DNA of 64,000 bases, taken from positions 51,353-115,352 of the IMG/VR virus record IMGVR_UViG_3300002835_000049; one strand, given 5' to 3'. The position numbers and the translations under genes were made by a program. Positions 20,878-53,712 of the stretch are shown here, piece by piece. Numbering within the stretch: position 1 is the first letter of the stretch; each line of letters starts with the position of its first letter. The notes below the pieces were generated by a model, which saw only the letters and a list, made by a program, of their open reading frames with translations, searched no databases and was not told where the DNA came from. This DNA comes from a virus.

Positions 20878-21444
20878 TTATTGGAGTCTCACAGGTATCT
20901 TATGTTTGGCACCATCGGTTCTTGAATATACAGCATATTGTGGTGTCATTATCATTTCATTATGCTCATCACCCAACATATTAATATAATCATTACCTTT
21001 GCCAGGTTTAAGATATGCAATAGTCATATGTGGATAATAGTCAGGGTAATCACTTGTGAATGGAAATTGTTTTAATTCCTCGTTTGTATCATTTAGATTA
21101 TCCCCCATTATATCATACTTTAATACATCATACTTTGGGCTGTTGAAACAAGATAGGTTATGAGCTTTACAATTTGTGTATGTATATTTGTTTAACACAT
21201 TAATTATGTCGTCAATACTCACCTCGTTATCGTGTAATCCGTATAATAATGTACAATGTGATTCCGGTTCTAAACCAAACCCCTCTTCTTCGGTGTATAA
21301 GTCATCAGGGTTTATCTTGTTGTGTAATTCCGTAATAGTATCAGGGTTAAAGTATAACATTGCACAAGAATATGGATATACTTGTTTGTTCTCATTTATC
21401 CCCATCATTGTTTTGATTTTTGTTATCTGTTCGTTTAATTCCAT
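20878..21444 (-). CDS. Leader-bearing 2H phosphoesterase
   Basis: 188 residues. Leader MELNEQITKIKTMMGINEN with I-N-E as cleavage site, then a 2H phosphoesterase domain: H63-C-T65 in HCTLLYGLH and H139-M-T141 in HMTIAYLKPG. This fold cleaves 2',3'-cyclic or 2'-5'-linked phosphates; the phage T4 member Acb1 destroys CBASS signal nucleotides. A tagged enzyme could enter the cell with the DNA and act before transcription starts (inference). One base before the HNH gene; a TATAAATA sequence lies upstream. Confidence 0.82.
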   Translation of the reverse strand: MELNEQITKIKTMMGINENKQVYPYSCAMLYFNPDTITELHNKINPDDLYTEEEGFGLEPESHCTLLYGLHDNEVSIDDIINVLNKYTYTNCKAHNLSCFNSPKYDVLKYDIMGDNLNDTNEELKQFPFTSDYPDYYPHMTIAYLKPGKGNDYINMLGDEHNEMIMTPQYAVYSRTDGAKHKIPVRLQ

Positions 21445-33489: not shown

Positions 33490-34199
33490 TATGTCCAGTA
33501 ATTATGTTCCTTTGTAAAGAACTCATCATTATTTCTATTAAACCAAGATTTAATCATCATCTTAACCATATAGAATAATCCTTTATTCTTAAATCTTCTT
33601 GATGTGGTGTAAACAATTTCGTTATCCACATAAAACTTATTTGGCGTTATCTTTGAACTTAAATGGTAATCCTCGGCAAACTTATCATCCGGATTAAATC
33701 CTCCTAATGAATTAAACACCTCTCTATTAAATAACATAAATCCACCTACAGCAAATGGTGTGGTGAATTTGGTTAAGTATTGGATAACATCAAATGATTT
33801 ATATACATAATTGTAATGTCCATCATCTGTTCTCATTTTAGTTGTGGATAAATGATAATCGTTATTTTTCATTACCTTAACCATATGGGATAATAAATTA
33901 AGGTCAGTAATGAATATGTCGGCATCCAAAAATAAAACATAAGGTGTTTTTATCTTTTTGGTTCCGTTGTTTCTGGCTTCAGCTGGAAATCCACCTTTAA
34001 CTATTTTTACATTAATGTTATTATGAAATGAATGAAGAATACAATTCTGTGTGAATCCGTTGTCTGTTGAAGAGTCGGCAACCATAACATTCACATTTTT
34101 AATATTAGTTTGCAAGTTTATTAACTCCAAAGTTTTCTTTATGATTAAACCCTCATTTTTACAGGGTATGACTATCGTTAAATCCTTACTTAAACTCAT
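33489..34199 (-). CDS. Family 2 glycosyltransferase
   Basis: 236 residues. TIVIPCKNEGLIIKKTLELI start, ADSSTD at 41-46, DAD at 92-94 in LFLDADIF, and EDYHL at 176-180 as probable catalytic base, all GT-A family 2 features. C-terminus has an amphipathic KGLFYMVKMMIKSWFNRN that could touch membrane. Operon with the LpxH-like gene downstream and overlapping the large leader protein upstream by 4 nt. Confidence 0.87.
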   Translation of the reverse strand: MSLSKDLTIVIPCKNEGLIIKKTLELINLQTNIKNVNVMVADSSTDNGFTQNCILHSFHNNINVKIVKGGFPAEARNNGTKKIKTPYVLFLDADIFITDLNLLSHMVKVMKNNDYHLSTTKMRTDDGHYNYVYKSFDVIQYLTKFTTPFAVGGFMLFNREVFNSLGGFNPDDKFAEDYHLSSKITPNKFYVDNEIVYTTSRRFKNKGLFYMVKMMIKSWFNRNNDEFFTKEHNYWT

Positions 34200-35788
34200 A
34201 TACTAATATCGTCTAATCTGTAATTAACATTTTCATTTACTACATCATAATCAGGTGATGGATACCATCTATCATCAGGACTATAATCAGGTTTTTCAAT
34301 ATAATCTTCTGAAATTAATGTATCAAGGACGCCTTCTAAATTATAACCTCCATCTCTACTTAGATTATCTTCAAATATTACATCAATATCTTCATCATCA
34401 ACATCAACTAAATTACTTAAATCAATTTGGATTTTGGCTCCATCACTATTAAAGAAAAACACATTACCATAAAACTCTAACGCCGATTTTATTTCATCCT
34501 GTAAATGATTAACATAATCGTCAGCGTCAGCATCATTTATTGCACCACCAATAGCATTTTTAATTTCATAATCACCATCAACTTCTCCTATCGCGTCTTC
34601 TAAAGATAAACTATCGTCTAATTCAATACCATCTCTTTGAGACATGTCTCTAACAATCGCCCATAACTTTTCTTCTGTTGGTTTATCCATTACATATTCA
34701 AAATAACTTGGTAAATCTTCATTATCGTGTTGACCCCATAAATTCCAAGCATCACCTTCCATTATCTCTTCAAAAATACTAACCCTTTTTACCACACCTG
34801 TTGTTCTATTAGTATAACTATTGTAAGTTCCCCCATCAATATACCTGTGAAAATCATCCGGGGTAATATCTAATGTAAATGTTGTTGGGAGTGGTTGGAC
34901 ATCAACAATTCCCATCTTACCTAACAATCGTTGCATGGTTCTTGATGAGAATAACTCCGGTCTGTTTTTATATAAATCTTTGATTGTTTCTTCTGGTAAA
35001 TCAGATAGTTTAAAGTCCTGTTCTGATGCGTATTCTGTTCCAAATCCTTGAATTAAGTAATCCTCTTCTTCTCCTGAACCACCTAACACATAGAATAATG
35101 GTAAAATATATTGATGGTATTCATCTTTTGGTTTAGAGTTCTTAACACCCTTTAATTGATATAAAATACCATCCTCACCGATTGCGGCAGTTAGAACCGA
35201 TTTATTTAATTTATATTTATTATTAATTGGGATATTTTGTCTTAATGAATAAAGATACCCATAACTACTTCTTCCACAATGCCCCATCCTGTTGCACTCA
35301 GCTTCTGAATTTTTTGTATTCAAATCCGCCCAATAAAACCCATTTCCGTTCTCATCTGTAAAATCTAATATGGTAGGGTTTGTTTCTTTATAGTTAATAT
35401 CTCCCTGACCAACTTCTAAACTATCGTGCCATACCTCCGATTTTCCCCATAATTCTTTGAATGGTAAATTTTGGTATTCTTTGACATTACCATTTAACCC
35501 GACTCTAATCCAATCCATAATAGATTGTATCTTACTACGATGTCCGGTAATAAAACGATTACTATTCATTTTATCAACCAATGCTTGACCCTGACTAGCT
35601 GGCTTACCCCAACCTAACTCAATATTTTGCTGAAACTCCATCACTTTTTTAGCCATCCAAATTGCTAACGGACCACAAACAGAATCTAATATTTCAGCGT
35701 TCTCTTCGTTAAACCCAATCTTATCCAATAAGATTTGTTTCTTGGATGCTTCAGATATAATTTGTTTTATACTTTCTATTAATTTCAT
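34196..35788 (-). CDS. ISE-leader, PcfJ-like large protein
   Basis: 530 residues. Leader MKLIESIKQIISEASKKQIL: I-S-E at 11-13 followed by A is an exact T4-type prohead-protease site. A central block (FYWADLNTKNSEAECNRMGH then CGR at 171-173, LYSLRQN) recalls the PcfJ-type/phage 'MGHCG...LYSLR' domain. The last 200 residues are very acidic. ATATTTAT box 6 nt before the ATG. Probably an internal virion protein; function unknown. Confidence 0.65.
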   Translation of the reverse strand: MKLIESIKQIISEASKKQILLDKIGFNEENAEILDSVCGPLAIWMAKKVMEFQQNIELGWGKPASQGQALVDKMNSNRFITGHRSKIQSIMDWIRVGLNGNVKEYQNLPFKELWGKSEVWHDSLEVGQGDINYKETNPTILDFTDENGNGFYWADLNTKNSEAECNRMGHCGRSSYGYLYSLRQNIPINNKYKLNKSVLTAAIGEDGILYQLKGVKNSKPKDEYHQYILPLFYVLGGSGEEEDYLIQGFGTEYASEQDFKLSDLPEETIKDLYKNRPELFSSRTMQRLLGKMGIVDVQPLPTTFTLDITPDDFHRYIDGGTYNSYTNRTTGVVKRVSIFEEIMEGDAWNLWGQHDNEDLPSYFEYVMDKPTEEKLWAIVRDMSQRDGIELDDSLSLEDAIGEVDGDYEIKNAIGGAINDADADDYVNHLQDEIKSALEFYGNVFFFNSDGAKIQIDLSNLVDVDDEDIDVIFEDNLSRDGGYNLEGVLDTLISEDYIEKPDYSPDDRWYPSPDYDVVNENVNYRLDDISI

Positions 35789-39078: not shown

Positions 39079-39128
39079 ATCATTTTTTTTAAATAAAAAT
39101 AGTGTTTTACATTTTTTTTTATTATACC

Positions 39129-39136
39129 ATATTTAT
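39129..39136 (+). promoter_or_regulatory. ATATTTAT box 13 nt before 39150 gene
   Basis: Plus-strand octamer that also favours the ATG at 39150 over an upstream in-frame ATG at 39102. Confidence 0.45.
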
Positions 39137-39149
39137 TGTAAAGAATTTT

Positions 39150-39977
39150 ATGGAAAAAGATAGATTGTTAAAACTTGTGAGTAAAAGCTCTAAATCATTC
39201 AAAGATTTAACTCCAACACAAATTTACAATAAAATACAATCCGACTCAATATTTGAACCTTTTTTGTCTATATTACAACCTAACGATATTGTATTATATT
39301 GTTTTTTAGTTAATCAAAACCAATTAAAAAAAGATATTGATGAGATGTATGACCGAATAACTAGTGGTCTATACGCTGTTCAAATTGCTGAAATAGACGA
39401 ACAAAACCCTGAAGTGGATTGTTCATATTGTGATGCTGGCATTGTTAATTGTAGTAATTGTGATTCATCAGGTGTTATCCCTTGTGGTCAATGTAATGAA
39501 ACCGGTGAAGTCCCTTGCCATTATTGTGAAGGTAGTGGCATGAGTGATAATGAAACCGAATGTCGAGAATGTGAAGGTGATGGTAATGAAACTTGTAATG
39601 ATTGCAATGGAAATGGTGAAGTTGATTGTCACTGGTGTGATGATGGTTATAACCTTTGTGATGAATGTGGTGGAAGTGGTGAAATACCCGACTATGATTT
39701 AACATCAGTTGTCTATTCAGAGTTTGTATCTTGGAGCGAAGGTTGGAGAAATAATTTTGACACCTATGTTTCAGATGAAATCATTGATACTGATGATTAC
39801 CATAATTTTATTGATAATAATCAAACTTTATTACTTCACTATGTTACACTCAAGAGCGAACATTATAAAGATTTTGAAGTTGGGGATTTAGTTTTTGATG
39901 AATTGGTATTTCAACCAACAATCAGTAGAGCAGGAACAATAGGAAATAAATTAGTAGTTAAAAACTTTAGACATTAA
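39150..39977 (+). CDS. DnaJ-type Cys-rich zinc-binding protein
   Basis: 275 residues. Eight C-x-x-C pairs at residues 91, 101, 112, 123, 138, 149, 160 and 170, each spaced 10-15 with Gly (e.g. CDECGGSGE), make a double-length DnaJ zinc-binding domain, but no J domain is present. Such domains bind zinc and unfolded protein. Flanking parts are helical and acidic. One base before the 39979 gene; the pair may be an operon. Confidence 0.75.
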   Translation: MEKDRLLKLVSKSSKSFKDLTPTQIYNKIQSDSIFEPFLSILQPNDIVLYCFLVNQNQLKKDIDEMYDRITSGLYAVQIAEIDEQNPEVDCSYCDAGIVNCSNCDSSGVIPCGQCNETGEVPCHYCEGSGMSDNETECRECEGDGNETCNDCNGNGEVDCHWCDDGYNLCDECGGSGEIPDYDLTSVVYSEFVSWSEGWRNNFDTYVSDEIIDTDDYHNFIDNNQTLLLHYVTLKSEHYKDFEVGDLVFDELVFQPTISRAGTIGNKLVVKNFRH

Positions 39978-44524: not shown

Positions 44525-44540
44525 CTTTTTATAAAAAAAA

Positions 44541-44559
44541 AAGGAACAAAATGTTCCTT
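44541..44559 (-). terminator. Terminator after 44564-45502 gene
   Basis: AAGGAAC / GTTCCTT stem with a minus-strand T run. Confidence 0.85.
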
Positions 44560-44563
44560 TAAT

Positions 44564-45502
44564 TTAATGTATGAATTCAAATGTTGAATTATCCTCTGAT
44601 AAATACTTTTCATTACTTGAGATTATTTGTCGTTTTATCCCATTTTCAACCTCTTCAACAAATCCCGGAATATTTTGGTAGTCATTATCAACAACCATTT
44701 TATTATTAACAACTTTACCGGCTTTAATTATTGTAATAGTAATTTTAATTTTCCCACCTTCTTCTTTAATATCTGAAATGGTATAACTTACTTTTTTTGC
44801 CGTATCACCATAACCCAAAGTCAATAATTTTTTAGAACCAACTAATTCAGATTTAATTTTTGTTGTAAAATTTACCACTTTTGCATTATTAATCTCCTCT
44901 AAAGTATAAACACCATACATAAGACCTTTAATATCGTCTTGAGTAACTTTTATAACATCACTCTTTAAATCTGAACTATAACTTATCGGATTAACTTGGG
45001 ACATTTGTTTGGATGTTGACATAGAATAAGTGTCTGACACTTTAAACCACATATTATTGATAAATAAATAAATTGGATACCATCCATATGATGTTATAAC
45101 ATAATACCATTCATTTTTTCTATTAACATCCCATTTACCCTCAAGATTAGACCCTTTAAATGGCATTTTAGCCGAAGCATACTCTGAAGCTTTATTATTT
45201 GGTGTCTTACTTTGTTTAAATAATCTATAATCTTTGAAGTTCTCTTTGGTTAAATTTTCATAGTCCCCATCTTCCCTAAAATTTGCAGTATAAACTTCAT
45301 AATAAAATAAAGCATCTCTGGATGGTAATCCAAAAACATCCATCATCCTTTTAATTAAATCAACTAATATTTTTTTAGTCTTTGCCTGATGTTTGTGTTT
45401 GTTAAGGTATTTGAAAAGTAATATTTCCTTTTTTGATAAAGGATTTTCATTTTCACCACCTTCAAGCTGTTCTTTTAATATTTTCTTAATTAAATCTCTC
45501 AT
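44564..45502 (-). CDS. IKKILKEQ-leader protein
   Basis: 312 residues from the ATG at 45502, just after the ferritin stop. MRDLIKKILKEQLEGGENEN leader (L-K-E at 9-11). Middle has WYYVITSYGWYPIYLFINNMWFK and the C-terminal KVSYTISDIKEEGGKIKITI domain is beta-rich. No known family. Part of a leader operon 46433-44564 with ferritin. Confidence 0.65.
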   Translation of the reverse strand: MRDLIKKILKEQLEGGENENPLSKKEILLFKYLNKHKHQAKTKKILVDLIKRMMDVFGLPSRDALFYYEVYTANFREDGDYENLTKENFKDYRLFKQSKTPNNKASEYASAKMPFKGSNLEGKWDVNRKNEWYYVITSYGWYPIYLFINNMWFKVSDTYSMSTSKQMSQVNPISYSSDLKSDVIKVTQDDIKGLMYGVYTLEEINNAKVVNFTTKIKSELVGSKKLLTLGYGDTAKKVSYTISDIKEEGGKIKITITIIKAGKVVNNKMVVDNDYQNIPGFVEEVENGIKRQIISSNEKYLSEDNSTFEFIH

Positions 45503-45503
45503 T

Positions 45504-46100
45504 TTAAAAATATGTTTGTTCAAAATATAACACCTGGAATTTATCGTTCTTATCAATTAAGTTACCAGCATTGATTAAATCATTGTATTCTACAACAGCA
45601 TTTTTTTGAAATTTTCTAAATTTAGTTAAAACATCAAAAGTTGTAATATCATCATTAAATAATGATTGTGAGTTTTTATTATACTCATTCATTAAACCTA
45701 ACTCCATTTTATATGCTCCGTGAACAATATCAATTAGGTTAGAAAAATCGTGTTTAGTTGGTGCTTGGGGTATTTCCGGTTGGACATTAAAATCCACCAT
45801 ATATTCCTGTAGAGTTTGAGCATGTGTTAATTCATCCGCCGCTTCATTTGTGAAAAATTCTGCAGCTTTCTTATAATTCATATCCTGACACCAATTGGCT
45901 GCCGCTCTATAATAATAATGAGCCGTGTATTCATCTTTAATTCTATCTGTAATAATTTTAATTGTTTTTGTATCTAATTTATACAAAGTAACCTTACTAA
46001 TTTTAGCCAAAGTATTATCAGCCTCACTTATTATTTCGTCGTTTGATGACATATTCTTAATCTGTTGGAACATTTTGTCCGTTAATGATTTATTTTCCAT
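45504..46100 (-). CDS. Ferritin-like protein with N-terminal leader
   Basis: 198 residues. Ferroxidase ligands line up with bacterial ferritin: E57 (KDEYTAHYYY), E90 and H93 (DELTHAQ), E133 (KMELG), Q165 (FQKNAVVEY); spacing 33/3/43/32 is close to E. coli FtnA (33/3/41/33). The family stores iron and removes Fe(II) with oxygen or peroxide. Residues 1-26 precede the ferritin helix and end EIISE before A27, an ideal hydrophobic-x-E cleavage site, so the ferritin may be packaged or processed. Between two leader genes. Confidence 0.82.
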   Translation of the reverse strand: MENKSLTDKMFQQIKNMSSNDEIISEADNTLAKISKVTLYKLDTKTIKIITDRIKDEYTAHYYYRAAANWCQDMNYKKAAEFFTNEAADELTHAQTLQEYMVDFNVQPEIPQAPTKHDFSNLIDIVHGAYKMELGLMNEYNKNSQSLFNDDITTFDVLTKFRKFQKNAVVEYNDLINAGNLIDKNDKFQVLYFEQTYF

Positions 46101-46112
46101 ATTTAATTATTT

Positions 46113-46433
46113 TTATTTCCCAATTATTATGTCACTATAATCTAATTTATTCATACCGTCAATTTCTTTCTCATCAACAACCTCATCATACATAAATGCT
46201 TTCACAACAGATGTTATACTTTCCTCCGCCTGAGCAATTTTACTTTCCATCCAATCATCCAATTGAACGCTTCCATTTTCATCCATCTTTTCCCACATTT
46301 TTTCAGCTAATTTAAATATAGTGAAAAGGTGTTGGCGACTCATATAAGAACCTTGACCTTCATTTTCTTTAATGGTTTTCATTTTATCCACCAACTTTTC
46401 AAGTTGTTTTTCTGTTAATATAATGTTTTTCAT
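46113..46433 (-). CDS. LTE-leader helical virion-type protein
   Basis: 106 residues from the ATG at 46433. MKNIILTEKQLEKLVDKMKT leader (L-T-E at 6-8), second candidate site near KENEGQ, then an all-helical domain: YMSRQHLFTIFKLAEKMWEK, ...LDDWMESKIAQAEESITSVV. This helical pattern (MARxQL..., WVQxKIAQA) recurs in small proteins of T4-like marine phages. Likely virion-associated. Heads the ferritin operon; ATATTTAT box 13 nt upstream. Confidence 0.68.
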   Translation of the reverse strand: MKNIILTEKQLEKLVDKMKTIKENEGQGSYMSRQHLFTIFKLAEKMWEKMDENGSVQLDDWMESKIAQAEESITSVVKAFMYDEVVDEKEIDGMNKLDYSDIIIGK

Positions 46434-46446
46434 ATTCAGTTTATTT

Positions 46447-46454
46447 ATAAATAT
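46447..46454 (-). promoter_or_regulatory. ATATTTAT box, 13 nt before the ferritin operon
   Basis: Octamer upstream of the ATG at 46433. Confidence 0.5.
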
Positions 46455-46468
46455 ATCATAAAACAAAA

Positions 46469-46490
46469 AACCCCCACTATTGTGAGGGTT
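46469..46490 (-). terminator. Terminator after 46543-47031 gene
   Basis: AACCCCCAC / GTGAGGGTT with one mismatch and a T tail; a second CCGACA/TGTCGG hairpin lies at about 46500-46513. Confidence 0.75.
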
Positions 46491-51798: not shown

Positions 51799-51818
51799 AA
51801 GAGGTTATAACACCTCTT
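51799..51818 (-). terminator. Terminator at end of methyltransferase gene
   Basis: AAGAGGT / ACCTCTT stem and T run; the gene's stop codon lies inside it. Confidence 0.8.
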
Positions 51819-53712
51819 CTTTTAATTCTAATTTTGTCTGTTTCTTATCATCAATGAATGCTTGAACTCTTTTCCGAGCAACTTCCGTATAATCCGGAGA
51901 TAACTCAATTCCAATCCATCGTCTCTCTAATACTTCTGCCGCTACAGCTGATGTTCCACTTCCCATAAAGGGGTCAAGAACAATATCATCCTTATATGTA
52001 AGTATCTTAATCGCCTTCCCAGGTATATCCATTGAGAATGTGGCTTTAGTTAATGATTTAGTATCTGCAAAATATTCCCACCTTCCAAACACCAAGTTCA
52101 TAAACTCTTTCTTGTCCTCATCCTTATAAACCATCTTATTTTTGATGGTTCCATCTTCCTGAATTACTTTAGTTGGTTCTCCTTCCCATTGGGATTGTCC
52201 TTTAAGTAATTTCTTACTCGTTTTCTTATAAGCCAATATGATACACTCTTTTGGGTTATAAATATAGGGGCTCGACGCTGACATCCATGAGTTACCACAC
52301 CACACTAATTGTCCTGATTTTTCAACTAATAATGTTTTATTAGGTACTGACACACAATAAACTTTATCATCATAATCAATTGTGGTAACATTTTTTTTCT
52401 TTATATAACTTTGTTCTTTGTTGAGGATTTGAATTGTTGTCATTGGGTAATTAGATTTTATTATTTTACCATTCCAAAGTCTATCTTTCGCAAAATAACT
52501 ATATAATGAACAAATTCTCCCCGATTCAAATAATAATCTAAGAATTTGGTCTTTCATTATCTCACTACATACAGAAATTTTCCACAATTCATTGTCTTTA
52601 GTAAAAGACCCATCACCATAAAATATCCATAATAATAATATTTCTTTCTGTCTTTTAGACATATTAAAAACATAATCAGGTATTGTTCTTAAATTTTTAC
52701 TTTTTGTATCAAGTAAAAACGACGCCAATTGTTTTGAACAACAAAAATATTCGTTTTTTTGTTTTTTATATTCAAAATTAAATGGCAATCTCTCCAACAA
52801 TTCTTCAATTTCTTTTAAAAATTTTATTTTTGTTTGATAAATAGATATTTTGTATATACCTCGTTTAACATCATACGTTAATGAACCATCTGTTAGAAAA
52901 ATACCTAAAAATCTCATCCAATCATCCGCATCAACAATTACCGAATCTTCATTTCTATATATTTTTTTACTTCTTAACCCATACTCTACAGGAGGTATCA
53001 CAACAGTTTTCACATCCACAACATTATTTAACCCATTATGACTTCTAGGTATTGTGAAAACCTCTTGAGTTATCTCATTAAATGGTATAACGTCTATTTT
53101 AGAGTTGTCTACTCTAACCATATTATGGTTTTCTGTTATAGTAAGATTAACCGAACGAGTTTTAATATTTACTAATTTACCTTTAAATGGTTTTTCAATA
53201 TAATCAAAAGCCTTTTGATACTCAATTTCTTTAGTTGTAGGATTTAATGTCATAAATAAATCCGTCTTAATATCAACATCCTTAAAAAATTTAAGACCAT
53301 TATTTGTCATAACTTTAGTTTCATTATCATAACAACCCCAAGCAGTTTGTCTCACTCGGTGTGGTGAATCCTCAGTTAAATCAACCATCCCGTAAAATTT
53401 AAAACCAACTTCCTTCATCTTCATCCAAAATTCAGCGTTGAATAATATTCTACCTCCTCTTTCTTGAACATTCACTTCTATTGGAACATTGATGGCGATT
53501 CTTCCGTCATCCTTTAACACTCTATACGCTTCAGTTAACCATTTTGTCGTAAAATCCCAATACTCATCCATTGGAATACTATCATTATACACATCGTATT
53601 TGATGTTAACAGAATATGGTGGACTAGTCACCACTAAATCCACACAACCTTCAGGAAATGTTCCCATAACCTCAACACACTCACCATTTATAATCTTCCC
53701 TGTCTCTATCAT
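51805..53712 (-). CDS. DNA methyltransferase interrupted by an intein
   Basis: 635 residues as translated. N-extein 1-126 holds the motif IV loop SPPY (30-33) after GTFPEGCVDLVVT; C-extein 475-635 holds DPFMGSGTSAVAA (580-592) and RWIGIELSPDY, the S-adenosylmethionine motif, as in beta-class N4-C/N6-A methyltransferases. Spliced length would be about 287. The intein (127-474) sits at WG-C. Methylation could protect phage DNA from host restriction. Starts one base from the 53714 gene. Confidence 0.9.
   Translation of the reverse strand: MIETGKIINGECVEVMGTFPEGCVDLVVTSPPYSVNIKYDVYNDSIPMDEYWDFTTKWLTEAYRVLKDDGRIAINVPIEVNVQERGGRILFNAEFWMKMKEVGFKFYGMVDLTEDSPHRVRQTAWGCYDNETKVMTNNGLKFFKDVDIKTDLFMTLNPTTKEIEYQKAFDYIEKPFKGKLVNIKTRSVNLTITENHNMVRVDNSKIDVIPFNEITQEVFTIPRSHNGLNNVVDVKTVVIPPVEYGLRSKKIYRNEDSVIVDADDWMRFLGIFLTDGSLTYDVKRGIYKISIYQTKIKFLKEIEELLERLPFNFEYKKQKNEYFCCSKQLASFLLDTKSKNLRTIPDYVFNMSKRQKEILLLWIFYGDGSFTKDNELWKISVCSEIMKDQILRLLFESGRICSLYSYFAKDRLWNGKIIKSNYPMTTIQILNKEQSYIKKKNVTTIDYDDKVYCVSVPNKTLLVEKSGQLVWCGNSWMSASSPYIYNPKECIILAYKKTSKKLLKGQSQWEGEPTKVIQEDGTIKNKMVYKDEDKKEFMNLVFGRWEYFADTKSLTKATFSMDIPGKAIKILTYKDDIVLDPFMGSGTSAVAAEVLERRWIGIELSPDYTEVARKRVQAFIDDKKQTKLELKEEVL
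52291..53334 (-). mobile_element. Intein with LAGLIDADG homing endonuclease
   Basis: 348 residues. Starts C127-YDNETKVMTNNG (splicing block A); TITENHNM is block B. RFLGIFLTDGSL and LLWIFYGDGSF are the two LAGLIDADG helices, so it may cut an unoccupied allele. Ends VYCVSVPNKTLLVE...LVWCG-N474, with S475 as the first C-extein residue. The residue before the terminal Asn is Gly, not the usual His, a known but slower-splicing variant. Inserted in the motif between target and cofactor domains. Confidence 0.88.

Follow-up and report, generated by a model that had tools for sequence, protein, structure and literature searches.

Encapsulins are a described case in which ferritin-like cargo is sent into an HK97-fold shell by means of a terminal peptide. 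In phage T4, short N-terminal propeptides direct the internal proteins into the head, and the protease gp21 cleaves after the sequence L/I-x-E (PMC9026906). During T4 infection, both internal proteins and tag-fused foreign proteins reach the host, and foreign fusion proteins including GFP were packaged, delivered and apparently refolded (PMC9026906). The gene analysed here lies in a stretch of viral DNA of 64,000 nucleotides (the window), whose source virus record is 115 kb long and incomplete. What is new at this locus is the combination of a ferritin with a T4-type leader, both kinds of element being known separately.

The viral ferritin and its source lineage

The ferritin gene and its surroundings comprise the following features, where a slash marks a putative cleavage site:

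46469-46490, minus strand: terminator-like hairpin of the intrinsic type, separating the operon from the upstream gene
46447-46454, minus strand: late-type promoter motif, ATATTTAT as part of GATATATTTATAAAT; the first gene of the operon starts 14-21 nt further downstream
46113-46433, minus strand: first operon gene, 106 aa, with the leader-type N-terminus MKNIILTEKQLEKLVDKMKTIKE/N
45504-46100, minus strand: ferritin ORF, ATG start, 198 aa
46023-46100, minus strand: leader of the ferritin (residues 1-26, MENKSLTDKMFQQIKNMSSNDEIISE), proposed to act as a capsid-targeting propeptide, with a putative cut after E26
45978-46022, minus strand: linker, residues 27-41
45504-45977, minus strand: ferritin domain, residues 42-198 plus stop, comprising helices A-D followed by a short helix E at the C-terminus
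44564-45502, minus strand: third operon gene, 312 aa, with the leader MRDLIKKILKE/Q, in which E11 is unchanged across nine relatives
44540-44560, minus strand: terminator-like hairpin of the intrinsic type, closing the operon

In a profile search, the window protein matched the Pfam family Ferritin (PF00210) over residues 48-177 with 62.7 bits at a cut-off of 24.5. The five ferroxidase ligands of the A and B sites that an earlier note had read from the DNA alone (E57, E90, H93, E133 and Q165) are indeed present at these positions and were found to be invariant in all viral homologues (43/43). The AF2 model of the protein (mean pLDDT 88) displays four long helices and helix E. Comparison of this model with FtnA structures using Foldseek yielded TM-scores of 0.88-0.90 by target length, and the superposition on E. 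coli FtnA (1eum) gave a TM-score of 0.90 by target length at 1.4 Å. The C-site glutamates E49, E126 and E130 of E. coli FtnA are not kept in the viral proteins, which show D/S/N, I/G/F and A/S, respectively; judged from these residues, the ferroxidase centre therefore resembles the simpler two-iron type of H-ferritin. Against the NCBIfam FtnA equivalog (PRK10304) the protein scored 38.1 bits, below the cut-off of 178, which places it outside the FtnA subtype as defined by this model. Membership in the Dps group was considered and rejected, as the best matches are of the FtnA type and helix E is present.

The statement of the earlier note that ferritin genes are rare in phages holds for deposited phages, as two queries against 50,697 phage records (INPHARED) detected no ferritin homologue. 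The IMG/VR data, however, contained 57 loci of this family on contigs of up to 322 kb. Pattern searches across 84,980 prokaryote genomes revealed no near cellular relative, a search of plasmids retrieved distant FtnA only, and a short leader query had no match in cultured phages.

A relative of 322 kb (G001) encodes a ferritin that is 94% identical to that of the window, and its head module includes a bS21-like gene. Based on this gene together with genome size and GC content, we assigned it to the group of freshwater Bacteroidetes phages that encode bS21 (PMC9723584). In common with the phages described there (Chen et al. 2022) are a genome size of 293-331 kb, a GC content of 31-34% and a T4-type head module with the bS21-like gene on the opposite strand (here G001:243319), whereas ferritin goes unmentioned in the main text of that paper. 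The ferritin-bearing giant phages probably infect Bacteroidota.

Two further ORFs of the window were noted in passing. The ORF at 51805-53712 (minus strand) encodes a DNA methyltransferase (N6_N4_Mtase) and contains an insertion with LAGLIDADG and weak intein matches; at the equivalent place, the 322-kb relative has a methyltransferase form of 299 aa. The ORF at 39102-39977 (plus strand) contains many CxxC motifs and resembles a DnaJ-type zinc region.

The N-terminal extension and its putative cleavage site

Solved bacterial ferritins begin at about residue 38-47 of the phage protein, and residue 9 of E. coli FtnA aligns with residue 49. Compared to these structures, the whole extension thus amounts to about 38-41 residues, consisting of the 26-residue leader and a linker of about 15 residues. 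The description of 26 extra residues ending in EIISE before A27 proved correct as written. An extension of this kind in ordinary ferritins had been named as the observation that would speak against a leader; in the set compared, i.e. the solved bacterial ferritins, the extension is absent.

Close relatives keep the start codon, and an in-frame stop lies 1-10 codons upstream of it. Between two of the related genes (L002 and L005), 7 codon changes in residues 1-26 are synonymous and 4 non-synonymous, compared to 28 and 5, respectively, in the ferritin core, which is six times as long. In this comparison the leader evolves faster than the core, yet synonymous changes exceed non-synonymous ones there as well. 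Across related ferritins, mean identity is 34% for the extensions and 62% for the cores.

The sequence ISE26/A27 (IISE/A) of the window ferritin fits the (L/I)-x-E pattern of a propeptide end. Among the extensions, the pattern [IL]xE[QA] was found in 10/23 clusters compared to a shuffled mean of 0.84 (maximum 6 in 10,000 shuffles), where Q or A at P1' was picked after the other leaders and the site in the capsid protein were known; the leader and late-motif patterns in general were partly defined with data already seen. The looser pattern [IL]xE alone was weakly enriched (15/23 clusters versus 10.3 expected, P 0.03) owing to the high E content of the extensions, and we left it out as evidence since composition explains most of its occurrence. 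A recognisable site is absent in about a third of the leader clusters, including a close cousin group: no clear site was seen in ferritins L007/L009-L011, which are 71% identical and have the same gene order, or in L040, L042, L044 and L049-L051.

Clusters that lack a site would be expected if the protein were an ordinary late auxiliary ferritin, serving in the infected cell to store iron or to keep oxidative stress low, and if its extension were a disordered tail with no part in packaging. The occurrence of [IL]xE near the composition expectation would fit as well, and so would the AF2 model, in which a helix at residues 6-18 is followed by a stretch below pLDDT 50 around the proposed site (residues 19-32), making the extension a low-confidence tail. 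We nevertheless regard this explanation as unlikely, as it is at odds with the enrichment of [IL]xE[QA] in the extensions and with three features of the genomic context presented below, namely leaders common to unrelated genes, leader-type N-termini on both operon neighbours and a late-type promoter motif upstream.

As a separate observation, the ferritins at L049:2783-3298, L050:3123-3638 and L051:5956-6474 have about 12 residues before the domain; they are themselves leaderless and lie among leader genes.

Leader genes, late-type motif and head maturation

In 53/10,731 pairs of proteins from the same phage, the N-termini were strongly similar while the protein bodies were unlike, compared to 0/3,828 in a control using internal segments. 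In the phage of the window, the leader types found on unrelated proteins are MKKxFIITEEExxxIxxLYxLTEQ, MNLQENIxRIxxMMGxIxE and MDKKLINEDIANxKYLFGYKxGRVISEQ, and [ILV]xEQ is concentrated at residues 4-33 across the proteome. Two leader proteins outside the ferritin operon were recorded individually. The protein encoded at 20878-21444 (minus strand; leader MELNEQITKIKTMMGINE/N) matches the Pfam family Acb1 (anti-CBASS) with 28.1 bits at a cut-off of 27 and is a candidate for a pre-packaged counter-defence. The 530-residue protein encoded at 34196-35788 (minus strand; leader MKLIESIKQIISE/A) has no assigned family, and its IISE/A site is identical to that of the ferritin.

The ferritin lies between the 106-aa and the 312-aa protein in a three-gene operon framed by the late-type motif and two terminator-like hairpins. 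As both neighbours carry leader-type N-termini, the description of this locus as an operon of leader genes was borne out. For the third gene, the structural model was of mid quality and gave no confident fold match.

Two upstream motifs were enriched genome-wide in records G000 and G001, namely TATATTTATA and the Bacteroidota-type TAnnTTTG. Among first-in-operon genes, TATATTTATA precedes 24/33 leader genes, 13/26 genes of the virion module and 33/128 others (leader versus other genes, Fisher P about 1e-6). It was also found before 24 of 37 distinct ferritin upstream regions, taken mostly from contigs other than that of the window (shuffled mean 1.8, maximum 7 in 500), whereas the early-type motif precedes none of them (0/37). 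From this distribution we infer that TATATTTATA functions as a late-type promoter, and the motif agrees with a ferritin gene that would be expressed late, together with the head genes.

Regarding head maturation, a gp21-type protease (PF03420) was found in 7/14 related records, among them the 322-kb relative with the 94%-identical ferritin, a gp23-type capsid protein (PF07068) in 9/14 and a T4 portal in 15/29 records. Head genes, including the protease, were not found in the incomplete 115-kb record of the window, so that its protease is predicted from the relatives. Where removal of a propeptide would be expected, the capsid proteins contain a conserved NE (LINE/A in 5/7, INE/T and LNE/S in the other two), which is a probable cleavage site. 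The interpretation of the extension as a packaging leader, already put forward in the earlier note, thereby draws on the site motif, the shared leaders, the late-type promoter motif and the protease of the lineage, while several relatives without a site count against it.

Structural comparison of the ferritin model additionally returned weak matches to three BFVD entries for viral proteins annotated as prohead protease (A0A6J7WPK9, A0A6J7WIS1 and A0A6J7XDU5), a hint that some prohead proteases may have ferritin/Dps-like parts fused to them.

Proposed role in the phage head and comparison with known systems

We propose, with a probability of roughly 0.62 and on the basis of sequence features, that the protein is a late-made ferritin whose T4-type leader is trimmed by a gp21-type protease and which is packaged in the head and then delivered or assembled. 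The ferritin subunit, its ferroxidase ligands intact, would be made late in infection and recruited to the prohead core by residues 1-26, after which the prohead protease would remove the leader behind ISE26. The ferritin would then be found inside the mature head alongside further cargo proteins that carry leaders. Either delivered with the DNA or assembling in the head, the subunits would most likely bind or oxidise ferrous iron and may thereby limit iron-driven oxidative damage to the phage DNA as infection begins. It is from sequence and context that we infer targeting, cleavage, virion presence and function of the ferritin.

An assembled ferritin 24-mer would be too wide for the portal channel, so ejection would require disassembled subunits. 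The same constraint would suit a sub-case of our proposal in which the packaged ferritin, by analogy to encapsulins, is not ejected but remains inside the head in the form of assembled cages, holding iron or protecting the packaged DNA. The complete fold with helix E and the intact ferroxidase ligands are compatible with such cages, but in T4, the host receives internal and tag-fused proteins during infection (PMC9026906), and we consider retention doubtful.

A different role, as a tail part or as an iron supplier to tail proteins (entry of the Ferrojan-horse type), appears highly improbable and is the least supported among the functions proposed in the earlier note. A ferritin-like protein was proposed by virion mass spectrometry in the Vi01-like phage Sajous1 (PMC10892097). 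However, the PF00210 profile had no match in the related phage Vi01 or in Flavobacterium phage immuto, and given its absence from Vi01 the protein of Sajous1 is possibly no genuine ferritin. Moreover, leaders of this type are part of the pathway of head maturation, and the surroundings of the ferritin genes showed no link to the tail.

Returning to packaging in the head, we tentatively suggest that the heads of this lineage might carry functional, possibly iron-loaded ferritin as pre-packaged cargo, which would make them a viral equivalent of the ferritin compartments formed by encapsulins. Ferritin packaged in this way would possibly bring iron-handling into the cell with the DNA, or guard the packaged genome. 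If true, ferritin would join the few enzymes known to be pre-loaded in phage heads, and iron chemistry would enter the first moments of infection or the protection of the genome. This would also bear on where the iron attributed to phage particles resides. A lineage-wide leader would furthermore offer a simple sequence rule for predicting head cargo, including the candidate anti-CBASS protein of the window.

With the non-haem FtnA of bacteria (E. coli 1eum, V. cholerae 3qz3, H. pylori 3bve), the phage ferritin shares the four-helix bundle with helix E, the A/B-site ligands E, E, H, E and Q and the conserved Tyr (Y64 in the phage protein). It differs from FtnA in its extra extension of 38-41 residues, an identity of about 22%, the absence of the C-site glutamates and a shorter C-terminus ending in LYFEQTYF.

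In common with the T4 internal proteins and Alt, which carry a gp21-cut capsid targeting sequence, are the short putative N-terminal propeptide ending in [IL]xE, the T4-type protease and capsid protein of the lineage, the late-type promoter motif and the many unrelated candidate cargo proteins. In contrast to T4, where leaders comprise 10-19 residues, the phage ferritin leader has 26 residues according to the predicted processing, and the cargo is a ferritin, which is not described among the T4 internal proteins. The analogy to encapsulin cargo lies in the ferritin-type protein, the terminal targeting peptide and the HK97-fold shell; here, however, a phage head filled with DNA would serve as the shell, and the targeting peptide would be a propeptide at the N-terminus that is probably cleaved off.
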